Shown here piece after piece: positions 7,845 through 9,171 of a DNA stretch of 46,055 nt (position 1 is its first letter; each line of letters starts with the position of its first letter). The stretch is taken from assembly GCA_012523915.1 (NCBI GenBank), contig JAAYSU010000048.1:1-46055 (forward strand), read 5' to 3'. Below the pieces are notes generated by a model that was not told where the DNA came from, searched no databases, and saw nothing but the letters and a program-made list of their open reading frames with translations. This DNA is from Clostridiales bacterium. Its GTDB lineage: Bacteria > Bacillota > Clostridia > Peptostreptococcales > Anaerovoracaceae. Made by a program: the position numbers and the translations under genes.

Positions 7845-8588
7845 TTAATCAGTGGTTTCTTCTACTGTTTCTTCTTCAGTATTGACAGGTTCATCATCAA
7901 ATGATTCACCTTGCTTTGCTTCAATGACAGCATCTGCCATTTTCCCTGCAATAAGCTTTACTGCTCTTATCGCATCGTCATTAGCAGGAATAATATAATC
8001 TACATCATCTGGGTCGCAGTTTGTATCTACTATTCCAACTATAGGTATACCTAAGATACGTGCTTCTCTAACTGCAATTTTCTCCTTTTTAGGATCAACT
8101 ACGAAAACCGCACCCGGCATACCACTCATATCTTTAATTCCACCTAGGAATTTTTCCAGCCTATCTGCTTCTGCTTTTAACTTTAATACTTCTTTCTTAG
8201 TTAAAGCATCAAAAGTGCCATCAGTCTCCATATTTCTAATTTCATTCAGCCTATCGATACGTTGCGAGATAGTCTTAAAGTTAGTAAGCATACCGCCTAA
8301 CCATCTCTCATTCACGTAAAACATACCGCATCTCTTAGCTTCTTCAGCAATTGCTGCCTGAGCTTGTTTCTTTGTTCCAACAAAGAGAATAGGCTTTCCT
8401 TCTGCGGCAACATCTCTTATGAAATTGTATGCCTCCTCAAACTTTCTAACTGTTTTCTGAAGATCAATGATATAAATACCATTTCTCTCAGTGAAGATAT
8501 ATGGAGCCATTTTCGGGTTCCATCTTCTTGTTTGGTGTCCAAAATGAACACCTGCTTCTAAAAGCTGTTTCATTGTAATAATCGCCAT
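7845..8588 (-). CDS. rpsB: 30S ribosomal protein S2
   Basis: [68 protein letters not shown]. Confidence 0.98.
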
Positions 8589-8599
8589 ATTTACCTCCT

Positions 8600-8709
8600 G
8601 GTTTTAATCCTCCACCCCGCATACCTCACAAACGACCTTTTGGGCACCTGTTTGTAAGTAGCAAGATGTGTGTTTTTCTTGGATCTTCTTGCTTTTGAGA
8701 TCCTTGAAT
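8600..8709 (-). ncRNA. Candidate structured 5' leader of rpsB (possible autoregulatory ribosomal-protein leader)
   Basis: Minus-strand pairings: 5-bp GGATC(8703-8699)/GATCC(8685-8681); 7-bp AGCAAGA(8693-8687)/TCTTGCT(8666-8660), which starts inside the first loop (H-type pseudoknot); 9-bp CTTACAAAC(8658-8650)/GTTTGTGAG(8633-8625). Confidence 0.6.
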
Positions 8710-8738
8710 ACTATACTATATCATCTTTCATAATGCAA
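8710..8738 (-). promoter_or_regulatory. Promoter of rpsB-tsf
   Basis: Minus strand TTGCAT (8738-8733), 17 bp, TATAGT (8715-8710); predicted +1 near 8703, at the first base of the leader's first stem. Confidence 0.6.
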
Positions 8739-8746
8739 GAAAAATT

Positions 8747-9103
8747 TTAACACAAATGCCTTAGAAAGCTCTTTTTCGTGTGAGAATACCTTCGTTGACT
8801 GACTGATAAGACCGCCCCATTAACAAGATGAATTTCATAACGCTCTAGATGGACAGTTTTATTCAAATTCACAATAAAACTGTTATGACATCTACAAAAT
8901 CTTTTATCGATCATTTTCTTTAGTTCTTTGAAACTTCCATAAAAGCTATAGATATCATCCTCAGTATACACATGTATTATTCTTAACTCTTTCTCAAAAT
9001 ACAGTATGTCGTCTATCTTAATCCTCGTCGTACCTTGCTTTCTTGAAAGAACTAAATATTCATTCCCACCGTTGACTTGTATAAAACTGTTTTTTTGTGA
9101 CAT
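8747..9103 (-). CDS. Stand-alone LytTR-type DNA-binding domain protein
   Basis: IKIDDILYFEKELRIIHVYTEDDIYSFYGSFKELKKMI...FCRCHNSFIVNLNKTVHLERYEIHLVNGAVLSVSQRRY is LytTR-like; no receiver domain. GGAGG precedes ATG at 9103 (ORF track start 9160). Confidence 0.85.
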   Translation of the reverse strand: MSQKNSFIQVNGGNEYLVLSRKQGTTRIKIDDILYFEKELRIIHVYTEDDIYSFYGSFKELKKMIDKRFCRCHNSFIVNLNKTVHLERYEIHLVNGAVLSVSQRRYSHTKKSFLRHLC

Positions 9104-9106
9104 CAC

Positions 9107-9171
9107 TTGAACCTCCATTTTAACTACATAAAAAAGACGTCGTGTATATATAGACGCCATTTGAGGTTCAA
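9107..9171 (-). promoter_or_regulatory. Nested stem-loops before the LytTR gene: terminator-like inner hairpin, outer 9-bp stem covering the SD
   Basis: Minus strand TTGAACCTC (9171-9163) pairs with GAGGTTCAA (9115-9107), which contains part of GGAGG; inner GGCGTC/GACGTC hairpin is followed directly by TTTTTT. Confidence 0.5.

Follow-up and report, generated by a model that had tools for sequence, protein, structure and literature searches.

The region upstream of rpsB in this Anaerovoracaceae genome raises the question of what kind of structured leader precedes the gene, and which of its possible pairings are kept among relatives. The window, that is the whole stretch of 46,055 nucleotides that was analysed (contig JAAYSU010000048.1), contains the genes rpsB-tsf-pyrH-frr in this order on one strand, according to the ORFs, with rpsB first and pyrH standing for a pyrH-like kinase gene; all features described below lie on the same minus strand. 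rpsB (7845-8588) encodes ribosomal protein S2 (Pfam PF00318 Ribosomal_S2, E = 4e-106), starts with an ATG at 8588 and is preceded by a Shine-Dalgarno sequence AGGAGG at 8594-8599. The promoter (8710-8738) that an earlier note on this DNA had proposed is correct in its letters and positions: a -35 TTGCAT (8738-8733) and a -10 TATAGT (8715-8710) are separated by 17 nt, and a +1 near 8703 is predicted from the promoter sequence. A -10 is found at the corresponding place in the family leaders; a strict consensus promoter scan did not report the rpsB promoter, whose -35 matches the consensus at only 3 of 6 positions. The -10 is tandemly repeated as TATAGTATAGT (8720-8710), an arrangement common in rpsB promoters of the family and present in three copies only in its own genome; the other two copies precede no such leader, and TATAGTATAGT was rejected on this ground as a marker of a wider leader class. 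The product of the gene lying upstream (8747-9160) is a small protein carrying a LytTR DNA-binding domain, and the stop codon of this gene is located about 9 nt upstream of the rpsB -35.

We identify the leader at 8703-8589, with good confidence, as the clostridial rpsB motif, an S2 autoregulatory leader, to which a 5'-terminal hairpin has been added. The motif has been described by Meyer et al. (2009) as a long P1, a P2 absent or short in Firmicutes and a P3, with a pseudoknot that joins the P2-P3 junction to an extension 3' of P1 and comprises three pairs in Firmicutes (PMC2704228). The window leader shares the position upstream of rpsB, the long P1, the absence of P2, the presence of P3 and a three-pair pseudoknot between GGU (8648-8646) and ACC (8602-8600), and differs by the hairpin at +1, which the published description does not mention (PMC2704228). 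The comparison with Rfam ribosomal leaders that the earlier note had suggested gives t44 (RF00127), with 28.3 bits and E = 3e-4 in a permissive scan, and membership of t44 as curated by Rfam was rejected since this score falls below the gathering score of 44. The t44 model did not reach its cut-off in any of 20 Firmicutes loci (best relative 38.1), while the E. coli leader scores 83.5. Likeness to this S2-repressed E. coli rpsB-tsf leader extends to the overall layout, to the motifs CACAC, GGUGCC and GUGGAGG and to reciprocal model matches: t44 matches the window leader, and a covariance model built from 20 family leaders (R1) matches the E. coli rpsB leader, weakly, at 23.3 bits. The two leaders differ in their pseudoknots, the E. 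coli one having five pairs (GGGGU/ACCCC) and lying about 13 nt before the Shine-Dalgarno sequence, whereas that of the window abuts it. Descriptions of the S2 leader in some Firmicutes date back to 2009; the window leader is a new member and its core is a known element.

The 118-nt rpsB leader folds at -31.2 kcal/mol, better than chance (z = -2.85). P1 consists of 17 pairs in two parts, a lower helix (8668-8661/8620-8613) and an upper helix (8658-8650/8633-8625), both strands of which were followed in two alignments, one of 20 family leaders and one of 76 model matches. In the lower helix, rich in G-U pairs, the 5' strand CAUCUUGC contains UCUUGC and the 3' strand GCGGGGUG is followed by GAGG; two-sided changes affect 6 of its 8 pairs in the 20 leaders and 7 of 8 in the 76 matches. 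The upper helix, formed by CUUACAAAC and GUUUGUGAG, is the 9-bp stem of the earlier note, and all 9 pairs change on both sides among relatives in either alignment. P3 (8635-8645) is a hairpin of three pairs, GCC/GGU at 8645-8643/8637-8635, closed by the loop CAAAA, with 92% of paired cells in the 20 leaders and 98% in the 76 matches. Lastly, the pseudoknot strands GGU (8646-8648) and ACC (8600-8602) are near invariant in the 20-leader alignment, and ACC adjoins the Shine-Dalgarno sequence in the window as in relatives, the gap being 0-1 nt in 55 of the 64 family leaders measured. Of the stems first proposed, the 9-bp stem is thus retained; the lower P1 helix and the GGU/ACC pseudoknot had been overlooked, and the wrong pseudoknot had been chosen.

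A check for covariation among relatives, proposed in the earlier note, was run on rpsB leaders gathered from the same family (Anaerovoracaceae) and from other Firmicutes; Mogibacterium and Clostridiales Family XIII are among the names of the relatives whose loci were fetched. When 20 family leaders were aligned with structure annotation, changes on both sides were seen in 16 of 24 pairs (ancestry uncorrected). Paired cells amount to 82% in these leaders against 74% in shuffles, with none of 500 shuffles as high, and a slide of the partners by one column lowers pairing to about 50%. RNAalifold, run without a supplied structure, recovered five pairs of each P1 helix. Covariation is stronger on the 76 model matches, where again 0 of 500 shuffles equalled it, in an alignment that is fitted to the structure and uncorrected for ancestry. 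The pseudoknot is supported because the pair beside its GGU/ACC core is C-G in 18 and U-A in 20 of 62 leaders (Fisher p = 1e-7, ancestry uncorrected); the window's own fourth pair at this place is an A/A mismatch. These comparisons show that the predicted fold of P1, P3 and GGU/ACC is conserved and covaries, and that its ACC strand touches the Shine-Dalgarno sequence. Together with the published architecture of the rpsB motif, the covariation upholds the idea of a structured, promoter-anchored rpsB leader, and makes this leader a supported candidate for S2 autoregulation.

A different pseudoknot had been favored at the outset, in which AGCAAGA (8693-8687), in the loop of the 5' hairpin, pairs with UCUUGCU (8666-8660) to give an H-type pseudoknot or two mutually exclusive folds, an early anti-P1 fold opposing the S2-binding fold. 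The letters and the perfect 7-bp complementarity are as described, the pairing is sterically possible, and the AGCAAGA word is transcribed ahead of the P1 3' strand. The pairing excludes lower P1 because UCUUGC is the 5' strand of that helix, a rival rich in G-U pairs. The chance of a 7-bp match between that loop and the downstream stretch is p = 0.012, and some 7-bp match is present in 15% of shuffled leaders. Nested folding, which excludes pseudoknot energy, makes the alternative fold about 8 kcal/mol worse. Six pairs, one of them G-U, are kept in the single other genome that made up the same-genus comparison, whereas pairing of the loop with downstream sequence reaches p <= 0.05 in only 8 of 70 relatives. 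Matched-versus-mismatched pairing across 67-70 relatives gave a nominal excess (p = 0.002 with a 20-nt target, p = 0.006 for apical loops), these values being optimistic as several windows were tried; but no excess was seen for the P1 strand alone, and p rose to 0.065 once correlated GC content was corrected. The H-type pseudoknot was thus rejected by folding, shuffles, 67-70 relatives and GC correction, and a switch of this kind is very improbable; the AGCAAGA/UCUUGCU pairing is possibly a private feature of this genus.

The 5'-terminal hairpin itself (8681-8703) has a GGATC/GATCC stem (8703-8699/8685-8681) that starts at the predicted +1; the letters given for it earlier are correct and its position is conserved in the family. 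With promoters that were computed and unmapped throughout, the hairpin region folds beyond mononucleotide shuffles (p <= 0.05) in 59 of 70 family leaders, with a median z of -3.1, or in 56 of 70 under a stricter promoter-calling rule, and 39 nt is the median distance from the -10 to the motif. The median distance is 17 nt both in 51 loci chosen from a second collection (8 of which fold significantly, and one of which, L032, resembles a family member) and in leaders of other families in the order, of which 21 were sampled and one reaches p = 0.05. Because the hairpin is frequent in the family and rare in the leaders sampled from other families, it looks like a lineage-specific insertion near the predicted +1, a reading drawn from sequence comparison. 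L223, a leader belonging to a different family in the order, has a -10-to-motif stretch of 38 nt with a short GGAT/ATCC hairpin, non-significant at p = 0.14; given this leader, the insertion may predate the family.

Another reading takes the hairpin as a component of this family's S2 operator instead of a separate protector of the 5' end, as its constant position immediately before the motif would suggest. We regard this as unlikely: its stem and loop sequences vary widely across family leaders, an A/U-rich single-stranded spacer separates it from the motif in most of them, and other families function without it. Protection of the mRNA 5' end is the probable role, judging from work on mRNA decay. 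B. subtilis RppH acts only where two or more 5' nucleotides are unpaired (PMC3997798). With a hairpin placed at +1, degradation starting at the 5' end would therefore be slowed; the hairpin would conceal this end from both RppH and RNase J, and the mRNA would stay stable. The hairpin is reminiscent of the 5'-terminal stabilising stem-loops of E. coli ompA and papA, in which the transcript is likewise paired from its first nucleotide or close to it, the window stem beginning within a few nucleotides of the +1 predicted from the promoter. It differs from them in that it directly precedes a ribosomal-protein operator, and does so in one family, its stabilising role being putative. A literature search found neither the added hairpin nor a pseudoknot abutting the Shine-Dalgarno sequence described, within an incomplete coverage of key S2 work.

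As to the operator, surplus S2 in E. coli represses translation of its own operon with S1 needed as a helper, by a mechanism described as unclear (PMC10931766). By extension from E. coli, surplus S2 would bind the window leader and stabilise the P1/P3/pseudoknot fold, ribosome loading on AGGAGG would then be blocked, and S2, probably with the product of the downstream tsf, would fall. S1 differs in Firmicutes, which counts against a straight transfer of the E. coli S2/S1 mechanism. The rpsB leader showed no terminator-like site; attenuation was rejected for this reason and control of translation is likelier. Our literature search found no experiment on any clostridial rpsB leader. Tentatively, and with somewhat less than even confidence, we propose that a hairpin of variable sequence was inserted at the transcription start of the S2-regulated operon in a single clostridial family, giving two modules, a 5'-end stability lock and an S2 operator whose pseudoknot contacts the Shine-Dalgarno sequence, with repression and decay possibly coupled. 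This contact offers a simple and testable mechanism of repression, and the hairpin constitutes a natural experiment in which the same operator occurs with or without a 5' lock in neighboring families.

The distribution of the motif bears on a further reading, namely that the conserved fold serves general RNA stability or ribosome loading and not S2 binding. R1 was applied to 75 family leaders, its 20 training sequences included, and retrieved 73 at E <= 1.4e-4. It also matched 62 of the 78 other loci fetched (E < 0.01; some also family members), and 73 of the 98 genomes searched in the order gave exactly one match apiece; in its own genome, the rpsB leader is the sole convincing match, the next standing at E = 0.15. 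A general role would suit the putative status of S2 binding to the window leader, and also the 5' hairpin, which points to selection for stability. But the motif keeps its association with rpsB throughout the order and in other Firmicutes, and it has a relative in the E. coli S2 leader; we therefore consider such a role quite unlikely and keep the S2 operator as the preferred reading. The S2 leader is hence conserved and detectable throughout this clostridial order and in many other Firmicutes, and a dedicated covariance model would annotate many genomes.

Some leaders depart from the common fold. Eight low-scoring family leaders (L137, L142, L147, L153, L172, L176, L182 and L187) have a longer or rearranged P3 or junction, exemplified by a repeated GGTTGCCGC...CCCTGCCATAAGGGC block, and it is possible that they form a separate subtype. 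Three Oscillospiraceae/Ruminococcus rpsB leaders without a model match (L054:1426-1439, L055:1426-1439 and L060:1453-1466) gave no match in an Rfam search either; they have in common GTCAAAATACAAGG followed by a CGGCGGAGG end, and possibly represent a different type of rpsB leader.
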